A DNA stretch of 64,000 nt. Origin: an uncultured bacterium (GTDB lineage Bacteria; Cyanobacteriota; Vampirovibrionia; Gastranaerophilales; Gastranaerophilaceae). The stretch lies in assembly GCA_949290355.1 (NCBI GenBank), contig CASERN010000008.1, positions 1 to 64,000 of the forward strand, given 5' to 3'. The stretch's first letter is position 1; the number at the start of each line of letters is the position of its first letter. Of the stretch, positions 16,296 to 59,750 are shown piece after piece. The notes under the pieces were generated by a model. The model was not told the origin of the DNA. It ran no database searches and was given only the letters and a program-made list of their open reading frames with translations. Position numbers and translations under genes: made by a program.

Positions 16296-16364
16296 AAGAC
16301 CAAAAATTATTGACACTTGCAAAAAAATGAAATAACCTTTATAATTATAAAAAAGGAGTTTTTT

Positions 16365-17108
16365 ATGGAAAGAGACAAGAAGCTAAGAATCGCCCCCCCC
16401 CCCGAAAAGTCAGATATAGCAAGCATTTCAGAGGTAAAGTTTGATATTAAAACAAAAACAAGTTATAATAGTGATGTTATGAATCACAATTATAAAAAAA
16501 GACGAGCTTTTACTTTAGCAGAAGTGCTAATCACTATAGGAATTATAGGAGTTGTAGCAGCCCTTACGATTCCAACTATCATTACAAAATATAGAAGACA
16601 AACAGTTGAAAATAAACTAAAGAAATTTTATTCTGTTGTCAACCAAGCCATACAAATGTCTATTGCAGAACATGGACAAATAGATTTTGAGAATCAAACA
16701 ACCGGAACAAACGATAATTCTGAATATATCACTAAATGGTATAATGAATATCTTACCAAATATATGAAAAATATTGAAAACGAAAAAGTTGGTCAAGATT
16801 ATTATAAGGTATCCTTTACTGATGGCACGGGGTTTAATTCATACCTAGGTTCAAACAACGTTTTATACATATTCTATTGCCTGAATTTTAGTAGTTGTGC
16901 ACTTGGGCATTATAATGGAAAAGATCAATTTTTATTTACATATAGCCCAAAACAACAAAAAGTAGCTCCCGCATATTCAGGGGAAAATATAAACGAGTTA
17001 AAAAATAGATGTTACAATGCATCTAATGAAGGATCACGTTGGCATTGTGCAGCACTCATTGAAGCAAACGGCTGGAAAATCCCTGATGATTACCCTTACA
17101 TAAGATAA
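16365..17108 (+). CDS. Prepilin-like protein with long leader and C11 tract
   Basis: The frame encodes a type IV pilin-like N-terminus: KKRRA|FTLAEVLITIGIIGVVAA, with predicted prepilin-peptidase cleavage after Ala, conserved Glu5 of the mature form and a hydrophobic helix. About 190 residues of pseudopilin-like globular domain with several Cys follow. AAAAGGAG (16351-16358) supports the ATG at 16365, giving an unusual leader of about 47 residues containing RIAPPPEK encoded across an 11-C run. An in-frame ATG at 16479 (MNHNYKKRRA) would give a canonical short leader and lies just after an internal promoter. The arrangement is duplicated at 33638. The family is sure; the start and role (minor pilin or secretion pseudopilin) are open. 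Confidence 0.85.
   Translation: MERDKKLRIAPPPEKSDIASISEVKFDIKTKTSYNSDVMNHNYKKRRAFTLAEVLITIGIIGVVAALTIPTIITKYRRQTVENKLKKFYSVVNQAIQMSIAEHGQIDFENQTTGTNDNSEYITKWYNEYLTKYMKNIENEKVGQDYYKVSFTDGTGFNSYLGSNNVLYIFYCLNFSSCALGHYNGKDQFLFTYSPKQQKVAPAYSGENINELKNRCYNASNEGSRWHCAALIEANGWKIPDDYPYIR
16393..16403 (+). repeat. Poly-C(11) homopolymer within prepilin gene
   Basis: Eleven consecutive C residues lie in codons 10-13 of the long form, in strongly AT-rich DNA. Such tracts slip during replication, and a change of one or two bases would frameshift the 38-codon extension away from the pilin. The same C11 with flanking GAAAAGT is found at 33666-33676. Confidence 0.9.
16441..16469 (+). promoter_or_regulatory. 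Predicted internal promoter of prepilin gene
   Basis: -35 TTGATA (16441-16446), a 17-bp spacer and a perfect -10 TATAAT (16464-16469) lie inside the reading frame, 9 nt before the in-frame ATG at 16479. Transcription from here would give a nearly leaderless mRNA for the short prepilin. An identical -35/17/-10 layout is at 33714-33742, although the residues encoded around the -35 differ. Confidence 0.55.
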
Positions 17109-21580: not shown

Positions 21581-21896
21581 TTTCTTTTCTGCCTTTCCAC
21601 TATTCTATTAAAATTATAACAGAATAAATACTGGCTATGAACATTTCGCACCCGCAGCGAAATAATTTTTTTTATTTAATTTTTCTATACCTTTTCTAAT
21701 TATATTATACCACTTTTAGCAAAAAACTCATCAATCCTAAGTACTACTAAAGTAGCAACTTTACATATCTTTACATTTTTGCAGTATAGAAATTGTTAAC
21801 AATTGTTACACTATATTGTAAATTTTTAAAGTTAAAATAAGAAAATTCCGTAATACTACATGAACGTTACTAGTTTTGAAAGGAAAATCTCAAGAA
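21581..21896. other. Divergent intergenic region with TTGTTAACAA palindrome
   Basis: This is about 315 bp of AT-rich DNA between the divergent ycf45-like gene and the 21897 gene. It contains a 10-bp perfect palindrome TTGTTAACAA (21793-21802) and a following TTGTTACA. The same palindrome lies upstream of the paralog at 53265 and a degenerate TTGTTACAAA upstream of the one at 30312. No RNA gene or small ORF is convincing. Confidence 0.5.
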
Positions 21897-23561
21897 ATGG
21901 GCTTAGCAGCAGGACAAGCAAGATTATTGAGTATCACAGCAAGGAAATCAGACTGTGAATTTCAATCAATGCGACTTTCTCATCAGAAAATCGCACTTTC
22001 TCGTGAGCTTTCCGATCTTTCTAATGAATATGAAAATTCATTAGACCAAACTAAGCTAGTTTATGATTATTATGGTACTGGGGATACTTCAAATCCTTTA
22101 TCATATAACTTATTAATGACTCCTTCAGCCCTGAATGAATATATGCCAATTACAGTTACTGATTCTATGGGCAGAGTAACACTGGACAGCAAATATGCAG
22201 CTGCTGCTCGTGCTGCAGGTATACCACAAGAAGGGTTAGGGACATTACCTTCTGAAGAAACAAGAAATAAATTTATACAAGGATTATGCGATAACGGTTT
22301 AATCACATCAACGTTATCTTCAACAATACAAGGTCTACCCTACAACCAATCAGCAGGTTTTGGAGGAGATATTACAACATCAACGACAGTTGTTACAGGT
22401 AATATTAATGACTTAGTAAGCTATTTAAAAGAAAATTATACAGATCAATACCATTTATCAATAGATTCTTCAAGTGGTCATGATATAAAAATTCTTTCAA
22501 ATGGAAGTTCCGATATTAGTGATAGCAGTGATGAAAATAAATCTGCAGATATAAATATTTGGGATTTATTAAGTACTGACGATGAAGACCAGTATAACAT
22601 CTGGTTTCAAAGTCCAGACGGGAAACGTATGCCTACTGATGCAATGAAGTATGTAAACGATACAATGATGAGTGATTTTCTGGACTGGATAGAAGACTCT
22701 CTTGGCAGTGTACTTATTACTGACACAGCATCACAACAAGCATTCGATAAAGCACGCAGCCAAATTGAAAGTATATTATTTGGTGGTTTTGATCAAAGTA
22801 TGAGTGCAGACGATTTCAGAACAGATTATACAACTGAAGCTGGGCATAAAAGAAATTCAGATTGGGCTAGAGAATGGGCAGCACTGTATGGATCTGATTA
22901 TGTCGGTTATATGTATGTGAAAAACACACAAAACCGTATTAACAAAAACAACGGTGCGGGTTCTATCAACTTAAACAATATAGCTCAAGCTTTCTTAACT
23001 TTATTTGTCAAAGGAATGGATGGTTGGTCTAAGACAAATGCTGCAGGAGAAGAAAAATACTATGTAACAAGTGGAGCATTATCTGAAAACAGACTAGTTA
23101 CAAATACAGATTTAAAATATTCATATACATACACAATGAAAACAGGTTCATCTGTATCAAGTGATGATCTTGCACAATCTACATTCTATGACACATTATT
23201 CAACCAAATATGTGCAAACGGATGGACTGAGAACAATAACATTAACGATAATGAATATTTACAAGAAATGTTACAAAGTGGAATGCTTTATATTACAAAA
23301 GCTAAAGAAGATGGGTATTATTATCAAGGTAACTATGCAACTGACTCTTATATAAAAGTAGTTTCAGATGAAACAGCAATAGCACAAGCTGAAGCAAAGT
23401 ATTCTTCTGAAAAAGCAAAACTTAATTCAAAAGAAGAAGAACTTGATTTGAAAATGAAAAATTTAGATACAGAAATTTCTTCATTAAGCACAGAATATGA
23501 AACAGTAAAAAATACAATATCAAAAAACATAGAAAAATCATTTAAACGATACAATGCGTAA
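21897..23561 (+). CDS. Large protein, 'MGxAAxQARLL' paralogous family, member 1
   Basis: No named family is recognised. The product is 554 residues from ATG 21897, which begins MGLAAGQARLLSITARK and aligns with both paralogs. A TTG at 21876 would add seven residues not shared by them; AAAGGA lies about 12 nt upstream. The N-terminal 60 residues and C-terminal 55 residues (LDTEISSLSTEYETV, then KNIEKSFKRY) are helical and shared with 30312-31454 and 51517-53265, while the middle is variable and Ser/Thr/Asn/Tyr-rich. There is no classical signal peptide. Conserved coiled-coil ends around a variable centre recall axial or exported filament proteins, but that is inference only. Confidence 0.8.
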   Translation: MGLAAGQARLLSITARKSDCEFQSMRLSHQKIALSRELSDLSNEYENSLDQTKLVYDYYGTGDTSNPLSYNLLMTPSALNEYMPITVTDSMGRVTLDSKYAAAARAAGIPQEGLGTLPSEETRNKFIQGLCDNGLITSTLSSTIQGLPYNQSAGFGGDITTSTTVVTGNINDLVSYLKENYTDQYHLSIDSSSGHDIKILSNGSSDISDSSDENKSADINIWDLLSTDDEDQYNIWFQSPDGKRMPTDAMKYVNDTMMSDFLDWIEDSLGSVLITDTASQQAFDKARSQIESILFGGFDQSMSADDFRTDYTTEAGHKRNSDWAREWAALYGSDYVGYMYVKNTQNRINKNNGAGSINLNNIAQAFLTLFVKGMDGWSKTNAAGEEKYYVTSGALSENRLVTNTDLKYSYTYTMKTGSSVSSDDLAQSTFYDTLFNQICANGWTENNNINDNEYLQEMLQSGMLYITKAKEDGYYYQGNYATDSYIKVVSDETAIAQAEAKYSSEKAKLNSKEEELDLKMKNLDTEISSLSTEYETVKNTISKNIEKSFKRYNA

Positions 23562-24520: not shown

Positions 24521-25198
24521 TTATCGTAAAAAGACATTATTAATTTTAGTGGATAAAGCAGAAATAATAACCTCAAAATCTTTATCTGAATATGTTTCTT
24601 GATTCATGAAATTTTTATCTAAAGTTTTAGTAGGAATAAATTTTTGTAGATAATAACGTTTTGCGTTACAAATTAAATTCCCAATATCCGCGAAATCATC
24701 TATAGATAATTGAGACCTTACAACAGTAGTCCTAAATTCATAATCTACACCGCTATTCATTATTATGTCTATACTGTCTTTTATATTTTGGATATTTACG
24801 TTTATCCCGACTATATTTTTATATTTATGTAATGGAGCTTTTATATCCATTGCAATATAATCAATATGCGGCAAGGCTTTCTTTATCATCTCAGGGAATG
24901 TCCCATTTGTATCGAGTTTTACTAAAAAACCTAAAGTTTTAATTTTTTTTATAAAATCAATTAAATCATATTGTAAACAGGGTTCTCCTCCTGTTATTAC
25001 AACTCCGTCTAATTTCCCTTGTCTTGTTTTTAAAAAATCTAAGAAACCGGCACTAGTCCATGCCGGTTCCTTAAGTGTTATTAATTCAGGATTATGGCAA
25101 TATCCGCAGCGGAAATTGCAACCTTGAGTAAAAACAATTGCACAGATTTTTTCAGGAAAATCCAAAAGCGAAGTTTTTTGCACCCCGCCTATTTGCAT
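24521..25198 (-). CDS. nrdG: Anaerobic ribonucleotide reductase activating enzyme
   Basis: This radical SAM enzyme, about 225 residues, generates the glycyl radical of NrdD using S-adenosylmethionine and a [4Fe-4S] cluster. CNFRCGYCHNPEL near residue 29 is the CxxxCxxC cluster motif, and GGEPCLQ follows. ATG at 25198 was preferred over the ATG at 25204 because AGGAGA within the nrdD 3' end is 7 nt before the former but almost touches the latter. It overlaps nrdD by 10 nt, so translation is coupled, and it should be under the same cobalamin riboswitch. Confidence 0.93.
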   Translation of the reverse strand: MQIGGVQKTSLLDFPEKICAIVFTQGCNFRCGYCHNPELITLKEPAWTSAGFLDFLKTRQGKLDGVVITGGEPCLQYDLIDFIKKIKTLGFLVKLDTNGTFPEMIKKALPHIDYIAMDIKAPLHKYKNIVGINVNIQNIKDSIDIIMNSGVDYEFRTTVVRSQLSIDDFADIGNLICNAKRYYLQKFIPTKTLDKNFMNQETYSDKDFEVIISALSTKINNVFLR

Positions 25199-27039
25199 GT
25201 GCATTCTCCTATTTTAAATTCTTTACGATCAACAAATTCTTTTTTCTTACCTTTATTCCATTGTTGAACAGGCCTAATATATCCAACAACACGAGAATAA
25301 ACCTCACAATCAGCACCGCATTCTGGGCATGTAAAATGTTCACCTGCAACATATCCATGATTTGGGCAAGTACTAAATGTCGGAGAGAAAGTAAAATATG
25401 GCAAATGATAATTATTGCATACTTTTTTTACAAGATTTTTCATTGTTTCAATATTCTGAATTCTTTCTCCGGCATATATATGAACAACTGTCCCGCCAGT
25501 ATACTTTGTCTGTAAATCATCTTGATGATCTAATACCTCAAAAATATCATCAGTATAATTTACCGGTAATTGTGTTGAATTTGTATAATATGGGTATTTT
25601 TCCTTATCAAGCTTAGCTAGTCTATATGATGTGCCCTCGCCAGGAGTTGCTTCCAAATTATAATTATTACCTGTTTCTTTTTGGAACTCTACAATTTTCG
25701 CTCTCATAAAATCCATTACCTCTAGAGCAAATTGTTTACCTCTGAAACTTCCGATATCACTTCCTAAAAGATTTATACAAGCTTCATTCATTCCGATAAG
25801 ACCGATTGTTGAAAAATGATTTTTCCAATATACTCCGAAACGAGCTTTTATATCTCTCAAATAAAACTTTGTATAAGGATACAAATTTTTATCAGTCATA
25901 TCTTCAAGCAATTTACGTTTGATTTCAAGACTTTCCTTTGCTATTTCCATCTTCTTAGCTAAAGTTGCAAGGAATTCCCCTTTTGAATTTGAATTTTCAG
26001 CAATCTTAGGAAGGTTTATTGTTACTACTCCAACTGACCCTGTAAGAGGATTAGAGCCAAAAAGTCCACCACCTCTATATTCAAGTTCTCTGTTATCGAT
26101 TCTCAAACGACAACACATAGATCTTGCATCTTCTGGCGACATATCAGAATTAATAAAATTGGAGAAATACGGAATTCCATACTTTGCAGCCATCTCCCAT
26201 AGGCCTTCAATATTTTTATTATCCCAATCAAAATCTTTTGTTATATTATAGGTTGGAATAGGGAACGTAAACACCCTTCCGGAATTATCACCTTCCATCA
26301 TTACTTCAAAGAATGCTTTATTTAACATATCCATTTCTTTTTGGAATTCTTTGTATGTTCTTTCTTGAAGCTCTCCTCCAATAATTACAGGCTGTTCTGC
26401 ATAATAAGAAGGAACTGTTAAATCCATAGTTATATTTGTAAAAGGTGTTTGGAATCCAACTCTTGTAGGTACATTCATGTTAAATACAAATTCTTGAATA
26501 GCTTGTTTAACTTGTGCATAATCAAGATTGTCATAACTTATAAAAGGAGCTAAAAGTGTATCAAAGTTTGAAAAAGCTTGAGCCCCTGCAGCTTCACCTT
26601 GCATTGTATACATAAAATTGACAATTTGTCCTAAAGCAGTTCTAAAATGCTTTGCAGGAGCACTTTCTATTTTTCCTTTTACACCTGTAAAACCTTCTGA
26701 TAATAAATCTTTTAAATCCCAACCGACACAATATACAGATATTATATTCAAATCGTGAATATGAATATCTCCTCTCAAATGAGCATTTTTTATCTCAGCA
26801 GGATATACCTTATTTAACCAATATTGTTTGCTGATTTCTGAAGCAATATAGTTGTTTAAACCTTGAATTGAATAAGCCATATTTGAATTTTCATTAACCT
26901 TCCAATCAAGTTTTTTCAAATATCCCTCAACTAAATTAATATTAGCATCCTTATCAGATACTACAGAATTAGACATAAATGAACGTTTAGCTTCATCCAT
27001 ATTGACAACTTTGTTGTCATGCATAATTGTATTGTTCAT
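25189..27039 (-). CDS. nrdD: Anaerobic (class III) ribonucleoside-triphosphate reductase
   Basis: The 616-residue catalytic subunit reduces NTPs to dNTPs anaerobically by glycyl radical chemistry. The C-terminus has zinc-site cysteines (STCPNHGYV, FTCPECGADC) and the glycyl radical loop RVVGYIRPVQQWNKG. FGVYWKNHFSTIGLIGMNE and GSFRGKQFALEVM are family-typical. It is shorter than NrdD proteins with an N-terminal ATP-cone, and no cone-like segment is visible. GGGAGA lies 7 nt before the ATG inside the riboswitch expression platform. The pathway duplicates that of nrdJ at 57768, which needs B12. Confidence 0.96.
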   Translation of the reverse strand: MNNTIMHDNKVVNMDEAKRSFMSNSVVSDKDANINLVEGYLKKLDWKVNENSNMAYSIQGLNNYIASEISKQYWLNKVYPAEIKNAHLRGDIHIHDLNIISVYCVGWDLKDLLSEGFTGVKGKIESAPAKHFRTALGQIVNFMYTMQGEAAGAQAFSNFDTLLAPFISYDNLDYAQVKQAIQEFVFNMNVPTRVGFQTPFTNITMDLTVPSYYAEQPVIIGGELQERTYKEFQKEMDMLNKAFFEVMMEGDNSGRVFTFPIPTYNITKDFDWDNKNIEGLWEMAAKYGIPYFSNFINSDMSPEDARSMCCRLRIDNRELEYRGGGLFGSNPLTGSVGVVTINLPKIAENSNSKGEFLATLAKKMEIAKESLEIKRKLLEDMTDKNLYPYTKFYLRDIKARFGVYWKNHFSTIGLIGMNEACINLLGSDIGSFRGKQFALEVMDFMRAKIVEFQKETGNNYNLEATPGEGTSYRLAKLDKEKYPYYTNSTQLPVNYTDDIFEVLDHQDDLQTKYTGGTVVHIYAGERIQNIETMKNLVKKVCNNYHLPYFTFSPTFSTCPNHGYVAGEHFTCPECGADCEVYSRVVGYIRPVQQWNKGKKKEFVDRKEFKIGECTCK

Positions 27040-27200
27040 AAAAAAATCTCCCAGATTTCCGTGGTAACACTAACTTCAATAAGCATTCCGACTATCTCAT
27101 TTCATGAGGTCATTTTACAACCAGATTATTGTAAAAAAGACACGGCTGCGGTCCAGTGAGGGATTTTCACCCATGCTTTCCTTATAGAAGTATTTCAATT
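27040..27200 (-). ncRNA. Cobalamin riboswitch controlling nrdDG
   Basis: The minus strand carries the B12-box core: GGGTGAAAATCCCTCACTGG, then ACCGCAGCCGTG, then AGTCGGAATGCTTATTGAAG. These match the conserved segments of the AdoCbl riboswitch (RF00174) in order and spacing. The platform is a short hairpin AAATCT/AGATTT that includes the nrdD ribosome-binding site GGGAGA, followed by a T7 run. B12 binding should therefore hide the ribosome-binding site, end transcription, or both. The exact ends are approximate. Confidence 0.92.
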
Positions 27201-27243: not shown

Positions 27244-27272
27244 TTGACATGATTTTTCCCTTATTTTACGAT
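27244..27272 (+). promoter_or_regulatory. Promoter of B12-controlled unknown operon
   Basis: Perfect -35 TTGACA (27244-27249), a 17-bp spacer and -10 TACGAT (27267-27272) on the plus strand. The start would fall near 27280, at the 5' edge of the second riboswitch. Only 17 bp separate its -35 from that of nrdDG. Confidence 0.7.
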
Positions 27273-27279
27273 TTTAATA

Positions 27280-27424
27280 TAGAGGGAATGGAGTGAATAT
27301 CTCCAGCTGTGCCGCAACCGTAAAAGCCGGAATACTCAGAAAAACTTGTATACTGCGAGCATCGGTATGTAAGAAATAAATTTTCTCAGTTGTCCTCTTT
27401 AGATATAAAACAAGAGGATTTTTT
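27280..27424 (+). ncRNA. Cobalamin riboswitch controlling 27425-30194 operon
   Basis: The plus strand has AGGGAATGGAGTGAATATC, CCAGCTGTGCCGCAACCGTA and AAGCCGGAATACTCAG, the conserved elements of a cobalamin aptamer in order. A terminator hairpin TCCTCTT/AAGAGGA (27393-27418) with a T6 run ends one base before the ATG at 27425. Its 3' arm is also the ribosome-binding site (AGAGGA). One structure can thus block both transcription and translation when B12 is bound. Recognised from conserved sequence; the fold was not computed. Confidence 0.9.
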
Positions 27425-28123
27425 ATGTCCCTTACAGCAGTAAATACAAATAGCGCAAAAATAGGTACTTGTCCTCACGGGCTGCCGCTCGGAGCATGTC
27501 CGATTTGTAACGGAATGAGCGGTGGCGGAGGTGCAAAAAAAGCTGATTTTTCTGCAAAGCCAGGCGAAATGAGTTGGAATGAATGTGCTGCAATCGGAGC
27601 TTTTTTAAAAGCTCAGCAACAGGCAAAAGCACAAAGGCAGGAAGATGCTCTAAATTATGCAAAAAATGTACAGGCTTTTCAAAATGCTCTAATGAATTCA
27701 AGCCAAAAATTAGCAAATATTGCCCAATTTTTTTCGAATAATACTCCTGCAATAATTGCAAAGCCAATAAATTTCGTATTAAATACCGTATTAGGCAACA
27801 TAACAAAAGCAATTGCAAACCTTCCAACAACTATCTCAAATGTAATACATACAATTCAACAGAGACTTGCTGATATTTCAGATAAACTTACAGCAATGAT
27901 GGGAGAATTGAAAGCATCTATAGAAAAGAAAATATCGGAATCTTTCAAAGAAATTAAAAAGAAAATAAAATCAATATTCTCAATATTTCAAACATCAGAT
28001 TCAGACAATGAAGATAAACAAATAGATGAAACTAAAAAAGCTTTTGAATTAAGAACTTTCATACACAACTTATATAAAAAACTTACAGAAACTGAAAAGG
28101 ATTTAGAAGAAAATGAACGTTAG
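27425..28123 (+). CDS. Unknown Cys/His-motif protein, first gene of B12-riboswitch operon
   Basis: Unrecognised 232-residue protein. The N-terminus has GTCPHGLPLGACPICNGM, giving Cys16, His18, Cys25 and Cys28, a plausible metal site, then a Gly-rich turn and PGEMSWNECAAIG with Cys54. Residues 60-110 are Gln/Ala-rich helix, residues about 90-150 are amphipathic to hydrophobic helices, and the C-terminal 80 residues are charged coiled coil. There is no signal peptide. The riboswitch 5' of it implies a link to B12 or cobalt, or a function replaceable by a B12 enzyme. It overlaps the next gene by 11 nt. Confidence 0.85.
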   Translation: MSLTAVNTNSAKIGTCPHGLPLGACPICNGMSGGGGAKKADFSAKPGEMSWNECAAIGAFLKAQQQAKAQRQEDALNYAKNVQAFQNALMNSSQKLANIAQFFSNNTPAIIAKPINFVLNTVLGNITKAIANLPTTISNVIHTIQQRLADISDKLTAMMGELKASIEKKISESFKEIKKKIKSIFSIFQTSDSDNEDKQIDETKKAFELRTFIHNLYKKLTETEKDLEENER

Positions 28124-29603
28124 TCCGCTACAAGATGCAGAATTTAAACGACAACAAAAAAATATGACTTTAACTCAAAAAAAGACAAATCTGTCTACGA
28201 AAGAAGGAGTTTTAGTAAATAATTTTATAAAAGACAATCAATGCAACTTAAATGATACATATAATTCAATGATAATTTCCGAACAAACGAAATTACCTAA
28301 AAAGATATATGAAAATCAAACTACTAAAGAAAAAAATCTTTTGCCACTCGCAGGGATTTCTGTTGCAGTAATGGGAACAGTTGCCTTGTTATCAACGTTT
28401 GTAAAGAAGAATGCAAAAAATGTAATTGGTTTGGCTAAAGAAAAATGGCTGCCGACTGTAACAAGAAATGTAAATCTTAGTGAAGAAACTACTCAAGCAA
28501 TTTATCAAATGGTACAAAACCCAGGAAGAACATCGGTAATTGCAGGAACAGGAGTGTTGGCTCTTTCAGCCATGGCCTTTATGGGGAAGATGTTTTGTGA
28601 AGGATACAAAGAAATTTGGGTTAAAAGAAAAGAAGCCGATATACAAAAAAATCTTCAAGAAAAGCTTATAGACGTTGAAACTCAAGCATTTTCAGGGAAA
28701 ATACAAATAATTAGAAGCATGTTATCAAAACAAGCTCACGATTTTGAAAAATATCTTACTAATGATAATGATAAAATTCTTCCTGATTTTGGTAAAAAAG
28801 TTTTAAACTCAAACGGTCTTTATTTCATGGGAGAAAACAATAAAAAAGATCCTAAAACAAATAATTTAAAATATATATTTATGGGACTTGGAACAATTTC
28901 TTCAATAATCGGATTAGGATATTTTGCTTTTAAAAATGCTTCTAAAAGCAGAGCTTTAATTGATAAATATCTCCAAGACACTGAAAAATGCATTAATCAG
29001 GTCGTAAAATCTTCAAATGAAACTACAAAACAAACTGATAAAGAAACTTTAGAGAATTTATTTAAAATATTAGATGCTGACAAGAATTTTATAAAATCCA
29101 AATTATTAAAAATCAAATGGAGTGATAAAGAAAAAGAAGATTTCATAGAAAATGTCTATACAAAAATACAAACATCTACAACAAAAGTAAATCCAAACAT
29201 TGGAGGAGATGGAACATCAAAACCAGCATTCAATTCTTTTGTAAACGATTATAGAGCATTTTTCTACAACTGGCTTTTAGACACTTCAAACCCTCAATTC
29301 AAACAATTATTCTTCGGAGTTACAGGAGTAACAGCCGCAGGATATGCAGGGAAATTGTATGGCGATGCTATGAAAGATGTTCAAGTAAAAAAAATAAATG
29401 CAGAAACAGAATTGGATTTACAAAAAAGACTTGTATCTACAGAATTGAGAAATTTTAAATCAAAAAAAGAAGCAGCAATCCAACCTCTTGTTGACGAATT
29501 TTATAAGCAGGTTGATAATGGCAAACCAAAAGAAGAATTAAAAGTAATGGCAGATAATATATTATTTGAAATTAAAAACGGACCACCATTCGTATATTCA
29601 TAG
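28113..29603 (+). CDS. Unknown multi-span membrane protein with internal duplication
   Basis: Unrecognised 496-residue protein. Predicted membrane segments lie near residues 76-96, 141-160, 254-274 and about 415-432, separated by long charged coiled-coil stretches. The module 'NP...TGV..GK...K-E/D' plus VKRKEADIQKNLQEKL (residues about 138-200) recurs near the C-terminus as VKKINAETELDLQKRL (about 405-465), an internal duplication. Translation is coupled to the preceding gene (ATGA-type 11-nt overlap). The long polar N-terminus lacks a signal peptide. It is part of the B12-riboswitch operon; the function is unknown, and transport or membrane remodelling are only guesses. Confidence 0.85.
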   Translation: MNVSPLQDAEFKRQQKNMTLTQKKTNLSTKEGVLVNNFIKDNQCNLNDTYNSMIISEQTKLPKKIYENQTTKEKNLLPLAGISVAVMGTVALLSTFVKKNAKNVIGLAKEKWLPTVTRNVNLSEETTQAIYQMVQNPGRTSVIAGTGVLALSAMAFMGKMFCEGYKEIWVKRKEADIQKNLQEKLIDVETQAFSGKIQIIRSMLSKQAHDFEKYLTNDNDKILPDFGKKVLNSNGLYFMGENNKKDPKTNNLKYIFMGLGTISSIIGLGYFAFKNASKSRALIDKYLQDTEKCINQVVKSSNETTKQTDKETLENLFKILDADKNFIKSKLLKIKWSDKEKEDFIENVYTKIQTSTTKVNPNIGGDGTSKPAFNSFVNDYRAFFYNWLLDTSNPQFKQLFFGVTGVTAAGYAGKLYGDAMKDVQVKKINAETELDLQKRLVSTELRNFKSKKEAAIQPLVDEFYKQVDNGKPKEELKVMADNILFEIKNGPPFVYS

Positions 29604-29612
29604 GAGGATATC

Positions 29613-30194
29613 ATGTCTTATATATATATACAACCTTATCAAACAAATCAACAAAATATTTATAAATCAAAAAAATCTGCACTAAAAGATACTTTTCCAC
29701 TTTTGCAGATTCCTTGCCCTTTAGTTGATAATCAAAACATTACTAATATTTCAAAACAGCATACAAATTGTTTGCTGCCAAAAGGAAACAGAAATTACAC
29801 AATTGTTGATAAAAACAAAGTAGATTATTTTGTTTCGCAAAAAGAAGCGTCTCTTCCTTATTTAGCAGATATTCTTTCTCATTCAAATAACGAAGAACAA
29901 ATAGTTGAGACCTTGAATATTCTAAATTCAATGCTTGATAATGGGGTAAAAGGTATTGATAAAATGTACCCGATATTATCACGTTTTAACAATACAAATT
30001 CTCCTAATATCCAAACTTTTCTTGCTGGTATTTACAGAAAAACCCAAGTTCCTGATGCATTCGGACCTCTTGTAAAAATGTTAATACAAAATTCCCTTAA
30101 TCCGCAAACTTCAAACTTTGATCCGAATGAAGAAATCGGAGGGGCAATATTATCCTACATTTCAGACCGGTTTAGAAATCAACAACAAAAATAA
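29613..30194 (+). CDS. Unknown HEAT-like helical protein, third gene of B12-riboswitch operon
   Basis: Unrecognised 193-residue protein. The first 75 residues are polar, Tyr/Gln/Asn-rich and probably disordered. Residues 85-190 form short antiparallel helices (SLPYLADILSHSNNEEQIVE, then LNILNSMLDNGVKGIDKMYP) resembling HEAT/ARM repeats used for protein binding. GGAGG lies 6 nt before the ATG, which is 9 nt after the membrane gene, so all three are one transcript. No enzymatic motif is visible. Confidence 0.82.
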   Translation: MSYIYIQPYQTNQQNIYKSKKSALKDTFPLLQIPCPLVDNQNITNISKQHTNCLLPKGNRNYTIVDKNKVDYFVSQKEASLPYLADILSHSNNEEQIVETLNILNSMLDNGVKGIDKMYPILSRFNNTNSPNIQTFLAGIYRKTQVPDAFGPLVKMLIQNSLNPQTSNFDPNEEIGGAILSYISDRFRNQQQK

Positions 30195-30311
30195 AACAAT
30201 ATTTTTTGTTACAAAAACTTAACATGATTTCAGACATGATTAAAGTTTTAACTCCAATGTGTCGATAACATGCATGTAAGTACTAAATGTAAGAAAGGAA
30301 GATCGACAGCA

Positions 30312-31454
30312 ATGGGAATGGCAGCGTCACAAGCTAGATTTTTAGGCCTGACAGCCAGAAAAACCAATGTTGAATTTGAAGGTCAACAAGTTAACCAACA
30401 AAGAACAACATTGTCAAACCAGTCTGCTAATTACTACAACGATTTGTTGGGTATGTCAGTACCGGTTCCTCCGTCTGTCGATGATTACACAAAAACTGTG
30501 TATACTTTCGAAGATGGAGCTTTGACAAACCAAATAACAGCAATGATTGCTCAAGGTGATGGTACTTATACTGTTAGCTATTTAAGACAATGGACAGATG
30601 ACTTTTCAGTTGTTTCAGCTTCTACAAGTATTGTTAACAGAAATACTAATGGAACTGAAGATAAATCTGACGATATTTACAAAGTTGGCTCTACAACTCT
30701 TAGAAATATGACAGACCCTATTACTTATGATATTGAAGGAACTACTGCATATTACAACCCTGAAGACAAAAACTATTATGCTAATGCAGATTTTTCAGGT
30801 AATGCTATTGATACAAAAGATAAAGACATCAAACTTAACAGCGAAGATGATTATTTAAAAAGTTTATCAGCAGATCAAGTTTATCAATTACAAAAAGAAG
30901 AAGCAGAATATCTTCAGTTATTACAACAAAAATATGGTGATGGAGACTACCTTGTTAGATATGTCAAAGATACAACGACAGGGGAATATAATCCTTATTT
31001 TTACAAATTATCAGACTTAGAAGGTGCAAACTATGATCAAAACGGTAATTCTCAATCAAATATTAACTGTTACAAAATAGGGAGCGAAACTAAATCTGAA
31101 GAAGTAAAAGCCGTAAAAGGATGTCAAATAGAAAAAGACAGCTCAGGTCGTTACATAAAGATTTCAATTCCAAACGGAGATACATCAGTTGATTACGCAT
31201 TAACAACATCAACAGTTACTGACCAAGCAGCTTACGATGATGCAATGAACCAATATGAGTTTGAAAAATATGAATATGACCAAGCTATCCAAGAAATTAA
31301 CTCTAAAATCGAAATTGTTCAAGCTCAAGATAAAAACCTTGAATTAAGATTGAAACAATTAGATACTGAACAAGATGCAATTCAAACAGAAATGGATGCA
31401 GTACAAAAAGTTATTGAAAAAAACACTGAATCTACATTCAAAACATTCGGTTAA
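30312..31454 (+). CDS. 'MGxAAxQARLL' paralogous family, member 2
   Basis: The product is 380 residues from ATG 30312 (begins MGMAASQARFLGLTARK). A longer in-frame ATG at 30270 lacks a ribosome-binding site, while GAAAGGAAG precedes 30312. The N-terminal helix and the C-terminal LRLKQLDTEQDAIQTEMDAV and KNTESTFKTFG match members 1 and 3. The central part is shorter and different, rich in Tyr, Asp and Thr. It lies 118 nt after the B12-riboswitch operon, probably with its own promoter. Function unknown. Confidence 0.8.
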   Translation: MGMAASQARFLGLTARKTNVEFEGQQVNQQRTTLSNQSANYYNDLLGMSVPVPPSVDDYTKTVYTFEDGALTNQITAMIAQGDGTYTVSYLRQWTDDFSVVSASTSIVNRNTNGTEDKSDDIYKVGSTTLRNMTDPITYDIEGTTAYYNPEDKNYYANADFSGNAIDTKDKDIKLNSEDDYLKSLSADQVYQLQKEEAEYLQLLQQKYGDGDYLVRYVKDTTTGEYNPYFYKLSDLEGANYDQNGNSQSNINCYKIGSETKSEEVKAVKGCQIEKDSSGRYIKISIPNGDTSVDYALTTSTVTDQAAYDDAMNQYEFEKYEYDQAIQEINSKIEIVQAQDKNLELRLKQLDTEQDAIQTEMDAVQKVIEKNTESTFKTFG

Positions 31455-33605: not shown

Positions 33606-33637
33606 GAGTATGGTTAAGAAATAAGAGGAGTTTGAAA

Positions 33638-34483
33638 ATGAATACACAAGAAGCTTTCAGGATTGCCCCCCCCCCCGAAAAGTTAAATTATGACTGCATT
33701 TCAAGAGAATGGCTTGATAAATACAAAAATATAAGTTATAATAGTGATGTTATGAATCACTATTATGGAAGAAAAAGAGCTTTTACTTTAGCGGAAGTTT
33801 TAATTACTTTAGGAATTATCGGAGTCGTTGCTGCGATGACTATTCCTACGTTAATCGCTAACTACAGAGTTAAACAAACTGTAACTCAACTAAAAAAAAT
33901 TAATTCTACTTTGCAAAATACTTTTACTTACACAAAATTAAATGATTTTGCAGGTGCAAACGTAAAAGATTGGAATATCAATTATACAGAATTTACAAAT
34001 ATTCTCGCTAAAAACATGAAATCATCTAAAGTCTGTGGACAGAGCAATATAGAAGACTGTTTCCCTAATGTTAACTACAAGAATCTTTCAGGAGAATCAA
34101 ATGTATTACCACTAAGCTCTCTTCAAGGAGGTATAGTACTGAACGACGGGACCTTGCTTGGTCTTGTTTTTAATCCAAATAGTTCAAATGCAAATCTTTC
34201 TGGAGATTTGGGGCAAATATTTGTTGATATAAACGGAATTAAAGCTCCGAATGTATTAGGTAGAGATGTATTTTCTTTTATGATCAGAAATGATAAATTA
34301 ATTGCCAGAAATACACCAACTGAAACTAATTCTGCAGCATTAGGACCTCAAAAATATTGTTCAGTATCAAGCGGTTACGGTCATAATGGTCTTGGCTGCA
34401 CAGCTTGGGTAATTTATAACGAAAATATGGATTATCTGAAATGTGAAGGTTTAAATTGGCATACAAAACTACATTGCGATTAG
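33638..34483 (+). CDS. Prepilin-like protein with long leader and C11 tract (second copy)
   Basis: The 281-residue frame has the prepilin motif GRKRA|FTLAEVLITLGIIGV, then a pseudopilin-like domain with several Cys. AGAGGAG (33624-33630) supports ATG 33638; a TTG at 33632 is less likely. As in the 16365 gene, exactly 38 codons separate this ATG from a second in-frame ATG (33752) that would give a canonical leader, and the extension contains RIAPPPEK over a C11 run. Two stretches (19 and 28 nt) are identical between the genes at DNA level, while the pilin core has diverged at synonymous sites. It may be a type IV pilus or type II secretion component. Confidence 0.85.
   Translation: MNTQEAFRIAPPPEKLNYDCISREWLDKYKNISYNSDVMNHYYGRKRAFTLAEVLITLGIIGVVAAMTIPTLIANYRVKQTVTQLKKINSTLQNTFTYTKLNDFAGANVKDWNINYTEFTNILAKNMKSSKVCGQSNIEDCFPNVNYKNLSGESNVLPLSSLQGGIVLNDGTLLGLVFNPNSSNANLSGDLGQIFVDINGIKAPNVLGRDVFSFMIRNDKLIARNTPTETNSAALGPQKYCSVSSGYGHNGLGCTAWVIYNENMDYLKCEGLNWHTKLHCD
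33666..33676 (+). repeat. Poly-C(11) homopolymer within prepilin gene (second copy)
   Basis: Eleven consecutive C with identical flanks (G before, GAAAAGT after) to the tract at 16393-16403. At length 11 the long frame is open; any change not a multiple of three closes it. Confidence 0.9.
33714..33742 (+). promoter_or_regulatory. Predicted internal promoter of second C11 prepilin gene
   Basis: -35 TTGATA (33714-33719), 17-bp spacer, perfect -10 TATAAT (33737-33742), with 9 nt to the in-frame ATG at 33752. Same sequence and spacing as 16441-16469, in a different local protein context. Confidence 0.55.
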
Positions 34484-57767: not shown

Positions 57768-59750
57768 GTGACAGATACCACATGTATGGATAACTTAAAT
57801 TTATCCGAAAATGCAGTTAAAGTTCTTGAAAAAAGATATTTGAAAAGAGACAAAGAAGGGAAATGCGTGGAAACTCCTGCTGACATGTTCAGAAGAGTAG
57901 CAGATACTATTGCTGCAGGAGATTTAAAATTTGGAAAATCTCAAGCTGATGTTGATAAATTATCAGACAGATTTTATAAAGCTATTACAAATAGATATTT
58001 TATGCCTAATTCTCCAACATTGATGAACGCAGGTCGTGAGTTAGGACAACTTGCAGCTTGTTTTGTATTACCTGTTGAAGATTCTCTTGAAGGCATTTTT
58101 GAAACTGTCAAAAATACAGCTTTAATTCATAAATCAGGCGGTGGAACAGGTTTTTCTTTCTCAAGATTAAGACCTAAAAATAGTGTTGTTCGTTCTACTA
58201 TGGGAGTTTCTTCAGGCCCTGTATCATTTATGGAAGTATTTAATGCTGCAACTGAAGCTGTAAAACAAGGTGGCACAAGACGTGGTGCCAATATGGGTAT
58301 TTTAAGAGTTGACCACCCCGATATTTTAGACTTTATTGAATGCAAAAGCGATAATAATAAATTAAATAACTTCAATATTTCTGTAGCTATTACAGACAAG
58401 TTTATGGAAGCATTGAAAAATGGTACAGACTATGAATTAATTAATCCTCAAAATAATACTGTAGCAGGCAAATTAAGTGCTAAAAAGGTATTTGACATGA
58501 TTGTTGACGGTGCTTGGAGAAATGGAGAGCCTGGCATTATATTTATAGATAAAATGAATGCTGATAATCCGACACCTTTAGTTGGACAAATCGAATCAAC
58601 AAATCCTTGTGGAGAAGTGCCTTTACTTGCTTTTGAAGCTTGCAATTTAGGTTCTATAAATCTTGGAAGAATGGTAGAAAATGGTGAAATTAACTGGGAT
58701 TTACTTGCTCAAACGACAAGAACTGCTATTAGATTTTTAGACAACGTAATTGCAGTTAATAACTATCCTCTACCTCAAATTTCTGAAATGGTACAAAACA
58801 ACAGAAAAATTGGTTTAGGCGTAATGGGCTGGGCTGACATGCTTATGAAATTAGGCATTTCATACGCATCAGCAGAAGGCACAAAATTAGCTGGACAAGT
58901 CATGGAATTTATTGATTACGAATCTAAGTGCGAATCTATTGAACTTTCTAAAGAAAGAGGAAAATTTAATAACTTCAAAGGCAGCGTTTACGAAAAACCT
59001 AACTACCTTTATAATAAATACAAAGGGAAATCTGCAGGCAAAATTTCTGATGAACAATGGAAAGAATTAGATGAGCAAATTGCAAAAGTTGGCATAAGAA
59101 ATGCTACAACAACTTGTATCGCTCCTACTGGAACTATTTCGATGATAGCATCCGCATCAGGCGGTGTTGAACCATTATTTGGTCTTGTATTCTCAAGATT
59201 AATCATGGATGGTACTGAAATGCTTGAAGTTAACCCAATATTTAAAGATTATGCTATCAAACATGGATTCTATTCAGAAGACTTGATGAAAGAAATTGCA
59301 AAAACAGGTTCTGTAGCTCATGTCGATGGAGTACCTGCAGAAGCTAAACATATTTTTGTAACAGCTCATGATGTTTCTCCATATTGGCATGTAAAAATGC
59401 AAGCAGCATTCCAACTTCATACAGACAATGCTGTTTCAAAAACTGTTAACTTCGAAGAACATGCAACACGTAAAGACATTGAAGAAGCATATATCTTAGC
59501 TTATGAAAACAACTTAAAAGGAATTACAGTTTACAGAAACAACTCTCGTCAATTCCAACCTATGAATTTAGACGATAAGAAAAAAACTGAAGAAGCTAAA
59601 GTTGAAGAAACAAAACTTGAAGAATCTGTTGCATCTGAAGAACCTACAGGTGAAATAAAAACAGTTAAATGTCCTGAATGCGGAAATGAAATACAAATGG
59701 CAGAAGGATGTTTCATTTGTTTAAAATGCGGATATTCAGGTTGTTCATAG
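57768..59750 (+). CDS. nrdJ: Adenosylcobalamin-dependent (class II) ribonucleotide reductase
   Basis: The 660-residue enzyme makes deoxyribonucleotides using a radical from coenzyme B12. [20 protein letters not shown] (about 92), [36 protein letters not shown], and [20 protein letters not shown] are class II signatures. A Glu/Lys linker and a four-Cys zinc ribbon (CPECG...CLKCG) end the protein. GTG start at 57768 with a strong AGGGGAGG; no suitable ATG lies nearby. It is functionally redundant with nrdDG at 24.5-27 kb, whose leader is a B12 riboswitch. No riboswitch precedes nrdJ. Confidence 0.95.

Follow-up and report, generated by a model that had tools for sequence, protein, structure and literature searches.

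A conserved operon behind a cobalamin riboswitch is a candidate for obtaining or handling B12 in Gastranaerophilales

The 64,000-nucleotide contig stretch from an uncultured member of the Gastranaerophilaceae analysed here (the window) contains three adjacent genes, g1, g2 and g3, behind a cobalamin riboswitch. Judged from the DNA, this operon is a strong candidate for the way in which the bacterium gets or handles B12, because the bacterium uses B12, has no late gene for its synthesis and carries none of the importers that were searched for. In the reading we prefer, to which we give just short of an even chance, the operon is repressed by cobalamin, is switched on in B12 shortage and encodes an inner-membrane-centred system for corrinoid acquisition or handling in B12 auxotrophs. 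Our confidence stays below one half because the operon has no energising or outer-membrane part, coexists with btuCDF in some genomes and occurs without a clear NrdJ in others, and because the predicted structures are uninformative.

The operon and its three proteins

The genes lie on the forward strand at 27425-28123 (g1, 232 residues), 28113-29603 (g2, 496 residues) and 29613-30194 (g3, 193 residues). The first-pass annotation described them as tightly packed and unlike known B12 proteins, and both points hold: g1 and g2 overlap by 11 nt, g2 and g3 are separated by 9 nt, and none of the proteins reaches the curated cut-offs of Pfam or NCBIfam. With these two libraries, g1, g2 and g3 showed neither an enzyme family nor a catalytic signature, and nothing identifies the proteins as B12-independent isozymes. 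PADLOC and PHROGs gave weak coiled-coil matches only, to g1, and no paper was found in the open-access literature that treats a g1-g2-g3 operon or the cobalamin riboswitches of this lineage. The best reading is that the protein families of the operon are not described in the libraries searched.

The first protein, g1, is a helical soluble protein with an invariant CPHGxPxGxCPxC motif and a glycine run. The C-x-H-x6-C-x2-C pattern reported earlier is present in it, and its residues C16, H18, C25 and C28 do not vary among 29 homologues, the most distant of them at 17% identity; nor do P17, G19, G23, P26 and G30. This Cys-His-Cys-Cys site may bind a metal, either zinc or possibly the cobalt of a corrin. 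The AF2 model of g1 is mostly helix, at a mean pLDDT of 50, which is not confident. Weak helical matches to tape-measure proteins, apolipoprotein, Cob_adeno_trans (E 0.028) and ZorA were discarded as noise from coiled coils; all of them lie below curated cut-offs where such exist.

In the membrane protein g2, an internal duplication proposed before proved real, with residues 127-205 matching residues 381-461 (HHalign probability 98%, E 1e-13). Each copy has a hydrophobic segment that continues as a charged helix of ~50 residues, and the protein ends in a highly conserved EIKNGPPFVYS tail. The four membrane spans that had been assigned to it are borne out in part: three hydrophobic segments (79-97, 140-158 and 255-273) are over the threshold, with a weaker fourth one at about 397-415. 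Four long helices stand at the predicted spans in the AF2 model, again not confidently (mean pLDDT 67), and a Foldseek search with this model found no significant structural match and no transporter fold.

The third protein, g3, has the conserved motifs IYRK..PDAFGPL and FDPxEEIGGAIL. It was described as HEAT-like, and the evidence for a HEAT/ARM-like fold is weak: the best matches are designed armadillo proteins, with an E-value of 5e-7 for the whole sequence, but no single stretch passes and no Pfam match lies above the cut-off.

The riboswitch and the B12 regulon

A candidate sigma-70 promoter (TTGACA-17-TACGAT, 27244-27272, forward strand) can be read in the sequence before the riboswitch, and most relatives likewise have TTGAC and then a -10-like box 5' of the aptamer. 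The cobalamin riboswitch claimed by the first-pass annotation was confirmed as an AdoCbl-II aptamer (RF01689) at 27271-27344 on the same strand. It scores 40.8 bits, where the cut-off is 36.5 (E 2.6e-6 for a search of the entire window), and R1, a model built on aptamers of this operon, gives it 76.1 bits. The aptamer ends 80 nt before the start of g1. In an alignment of 32 aptamers, 99.8% of the pair cells are standard and 21 double changes occur, and none of 500 shuffles reaches either value; a long-range pair resembling J3/4-J6/3 alternates between A-U and G-C. P4 covaries in the leader alignment A8, and the P4, P6 and CCTC:GAGG pairs are conserved across 56 homologous leaders.

Two hairpins follow on the forward strand. 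The first (27348-27370) has an L13-like loop (tgcgagcat) facing L5 (tgccgc), a candidate kissing loop whose pairing was drawn by eye, unscored, from the sequence and alignment A8. The second (27393-27424) is terminator-like, with tcctctt...aagagga followed by TTTTTT, and also covers the Shine-Dalgarno sequence of g1, the start codon of which comes directly after the six T. Its core CCTC:GAGG is kept in 55-56 of the 56 sequences. Alternatively, tcctctt can base-pair with AGAGG, the 5' strand of the aptamer, and the GAGG in this strand is complementary to both the CTC of the aptamer and the CCTC of the terminator-like hairpin. From these alternative pairings, together with the conserved pairs and the covariation in the alignments, we infer an OFF switch that works through both termination and the ribosome site, and repression by cobalamin is predicted. 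Without B12, the AGAGG strand would pair with CCTCT and so free the AGAGGA ribosome site; with B12, the AGAGG strand would be held in the aptamer and CCTCT would pair with the ribosome site, forming the terminator-like hairpin.

A second cobalamin aptamer, absent from the first-pass annotation, lies on the reverse strand at 27079-27184 before nrdDG and has a long P6 insertion. Its Rfam score is below the cut-off (RF01689, 18.2 bits), and it is supported by the lineage model R1 (26.7 bits, E 1.3e-4); an RF01689 search of the window's genome at E<=0.01 found the operon aptamer alone. The genes behind it, also on the reverse strand, are nrdD for the anaerobic, B12-independent ribonucleotide reductase (25189-27039; NCBIfam TIGR02487, E 2.5e-178) and nrdG (24521-25204; TIGR02495, E 1.6e-61). 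The nrdDG aptamer and the operon aptamer belong to the same B12 regulon, and within the order cobalamin switches also precede nrdDG, metE, cobT and btuB-btuCDF. As the other B12 switch of the host controls a backup reductase, and metE and nrdDG stand behind such switches in relatives, the operon might likewise be a B12-sparing backup that replaces or protects a B12-needing process, as nrdDG does for NrdJ. We regard this as quite improbable. The switched nrdDG and metE share the regulation of the operon and its genomes or order, but they are B12-independent isozymes with known enzyme folds, whereas g1-g3 have no enzyme family or catalytic signature and are of membrane, coiled-coil and HEAT-like make-up. 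Moreover, g1-g2 is retained both with and without NrdJ.

Conservation of the operon and its switch

Nearly every genome of the window's family, and the majority of those sampled from the order, have a single copy of the operon. The g2 gene was found in 50 of 58 relatives and, in a class-wide draw, in 181 of 289 genomes, all listed positives falling within the window's order. Co-occurrence of operon and riboswitch, a check named beforehand, was positive in nearly every locus, over several families and for two classes of riboswitch. When loci were retrieved by the g2 profile only, a cobalamin aptamer stood 5' of g1 in 80 of 80 cases; 32 of these loci went into building the aptamer model, and results with the Rfam model agree. 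An order-wide set, which shares some genomes with the first, has the aptamer in 42 of 43 loci, and only locus L082 (genome G052) is without an upstream cobalamin aptamer there. Genomes G039, G042, G162 and G235 were rejected as riboswitch-free cases, their aptamers being diverged, with insertions or of the other class, and overlooked by a filtered genome search; all four count among the 42. Several genomes of family f3 carry the RF00174 class at the same place instead of AdoCbl-II. A long RF00174 riboswitch was seen before g1-g2 in loci L081, L083 and L085 of this family, and also in L078, L080 and L155. Homologues were thus neither regularly without a riboswitch nor members of an unrelated known family, and the link between switch and operon proposed earlier stands.

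Because g1 precedes g2 in 117 of 117 loci and g3 lies directly 3' of g2 in 102 of them, while the other neighbours vary (none exceeds 44 of 117), the unit is g1-g2, usually with g3; g3 is missing from family f3 and some genera. Within the window's family, an AdoCbl-II match is present in 173 of 176 g2-positive and in 4 of 12 g2-negative genomes (Fisher p 2e-9, kinship uncorrected), and NrdJ is missing in 8 of 12 g2-lacking against 6 of 30 g2-positive genomes (Fisher p 0.009, kinship uncorrected). Four of the losses in this comparison belong to a single genus (g39).

Some features around the operon were recorded besides. Paralogues at 30270-31454 and 21876-23561 share an N-terminal AAxQARxLxxTARK motif, a copy of their family follows g3 in about one third of the loci, and the paralogue at 30270-31454 has no Pfam match. 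A prepilin-like protein (33632-34483) has, ahead of its pilin motif AFTLAEVLITLGIIG, an N-terminal extension of unusual length that includes RIAPPPEK, and the gene at 16317-17108 has the same extension motif.

B12 economy of the host and possible roles of the operon

The host is a B12 consumer through its adenosylcobalamin-dependent ribonucleotide reductase, NrdJ (57768-59747, forward strand; TIGR02504, E 1.6e-222). The earlier suggestion that it uses NrdJ while scavenging the cofactor is supported, as CobS was found in none of 42 genomes searched, including the host, with positive controls; these genomes are therefore without a late step of B12 assembly. The FecCD/BtuC-type permease (PF01032) and the TonB plug (PF07715) are absent from the window's genome, and EcfT/CbiQ (PF02361) from all 35 genomes searched, with positive controls in each case. 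Among the genomes surveyed, FecCD is present in 7 of 44, BtuC-type permeases are rare (7 of 58 and 9 of 69), and the TonB plug occurs in 7 of 38, each also with a BtuC-type permease. The absence of known importers refers here to the families FecCD, EcfT, TonB plug and BtuC. The genes of cobalamin regulons serve B12 synthesis or the transport of B12 or cobalt, or encode isozymes (PMC3766115). Roles in B12 synthesis and cobalt transport are unlikely here, since there is no CobS and no CbiQ. Synthesis and cobalt supply do not fit, and none of the proteins can be recognised as an enzyme, which leaves acquisition or handling of B12 as the best class.

The earlier reading of the operon as a corrinoid-linked system thus gains from the riboswitch association and from NrdJ without synthesis, but not from a strict anticorrelation with btuFCD, which was not found: the two occur together in several genomes, and most genomes without g2 are without btuFCD as well. 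The operon coexists with btuCDF-type genes in G006, G040, G045, G102, G279, G305 and others, and the g2-lacking G313 has a switched btuB-btuCDF instead. In the NrdJ-positive genomes G209, G214 and G293 neither g2 nor a BtuC-type permease was found, possibly owing to incomplete assemblies or another route. This coexistence, like the invariant Cys/His site of g1 and the lack of a transporter fold found for g2, would suit a membrane-based role in B12 trafficking or storage, such as handing B12 on to NrdJ, in which the operon itself is not an importer. Such a role is unlikely in our view, since operon and riboswitch are kept without a clear NrdJ in G065, G197, G199, G202 and G235, three of which (G065, G202 and G235) have no PF02310 match either, and since expression under B12 scarcity fits capture better than storage.

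Corrinoid acquisition or handling, the preferred reading, may be set against the known uptake systems. BtuFCD with BtuB, a type II ABC transporter with a TonB receptor, is itself placed behind AdoCbl-II switches of this kind in a number of relatives (L090, L091, L096, L098), would be expected to be needed at low B12 like the operon, and can share one genome with it. The operon, however, has no sequence relation to it: no Pfam match above the cut-off for a FecCD/BtuC permease exists in g1-g3, and no ATPase, substrate-binding protein or outer-membrane component is encoded. Hence, the operon alone cannot make up a full importer of any known type. BtuM is a stand-alone B12 membrane protein in which a cysteine ligates the cobalt of the corrin (PMC6072759). 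Like g2 it is an inner-membrane protein without an ATPase, and its metal-ligating cysteine recalls the invariant Cys/His residues of g1; but BtuM has ~22 kDa, six TM helices and an S-component fold, whereas g2 has 496 residues, three to four TM segments, a tandem duplication and long helical arms, and the Cys site of the operon sits in a separate soluble protein. ECF-CbrT would resemble the proposed system in taking up B12 without BtuFCD, but it requires EcfT, the family missing from all 35 genomes. For a BacA/SbmA-like importer, with ABC membrane part and ATPase in one chain, g2 itself shows no Pfam match above the cut-off. In a complex of the three proteins, g2 would sit in the membrane with its helical arms in the cytoplasm, g1 would be its soluble helical partner holding a metal at the Cys-His-Cys-Cys site, and g3 a HEAT-like scaffold. 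Such a complex may move B12 across the membrane directly, and of all the steps this one is the least secure.

In other orders of the class (families f12 and f10), an AdoCbl-II switch precedes an unrelated membrane-type protein of ~480-590 residues with repeated R..LH..DS..S motifs (f12: L274:5049-7532, L275:4914-7346, L276:5914-8443 and L277:5340-7865; f10: L278 and L280). In the four f12 loci whose sequence continues intact on the 3' side (L274-L277), a helical Gly-run protein is encoded next. Homology of the membrane-type protein with g2 was rejected (HHalign probability 1%), and the likeness of g1 to the Gly-rich partner is unconvincing (82% over 37 residues of helix). FecCD is also absent from the f12 and f10 genomes with this protein; in f13 the switch precedes a different gene (L279), and FecCD is present. 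It is rather doubtful, if conceivable, that g1-g2(-g3) represents a new non-ABC, non-ECF and non-TonB class of B12 uptake and that Vampirovibrionia evolved at least two unrelated B12-switched membrane systems, the second being the membrane-type protein with its Gly-run partner. Membrane-type proteins behind cobalamin switches in other orders, and the long helical arms of the membrane protein g2, might also point to an envelope or surface response to B12 starvation, such as remodelling, contact or vesicles, that leaves B12 itself untouched; a study of Bacteroides is reported to tie B12 acquisition to vesicles (PMC12751083). With no signal peptide or surface domain recognised in a search made without a dedicated signal-peptide predictor, this explanation is hardly probable.

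BtuCDF is predicted in only about half of B12 auxotrophs (PMC6072759), and the B12 uptake route of most B12-dependent bacteria is still open. The lineage studied here, a common one in animal guts, uses B12 without CobS, mostly lacks the importers searched for and has one deeply conserved B12-switched operon whose proteins are undescribed, which narrows the search to a short, testable list of two to three candidate genes.
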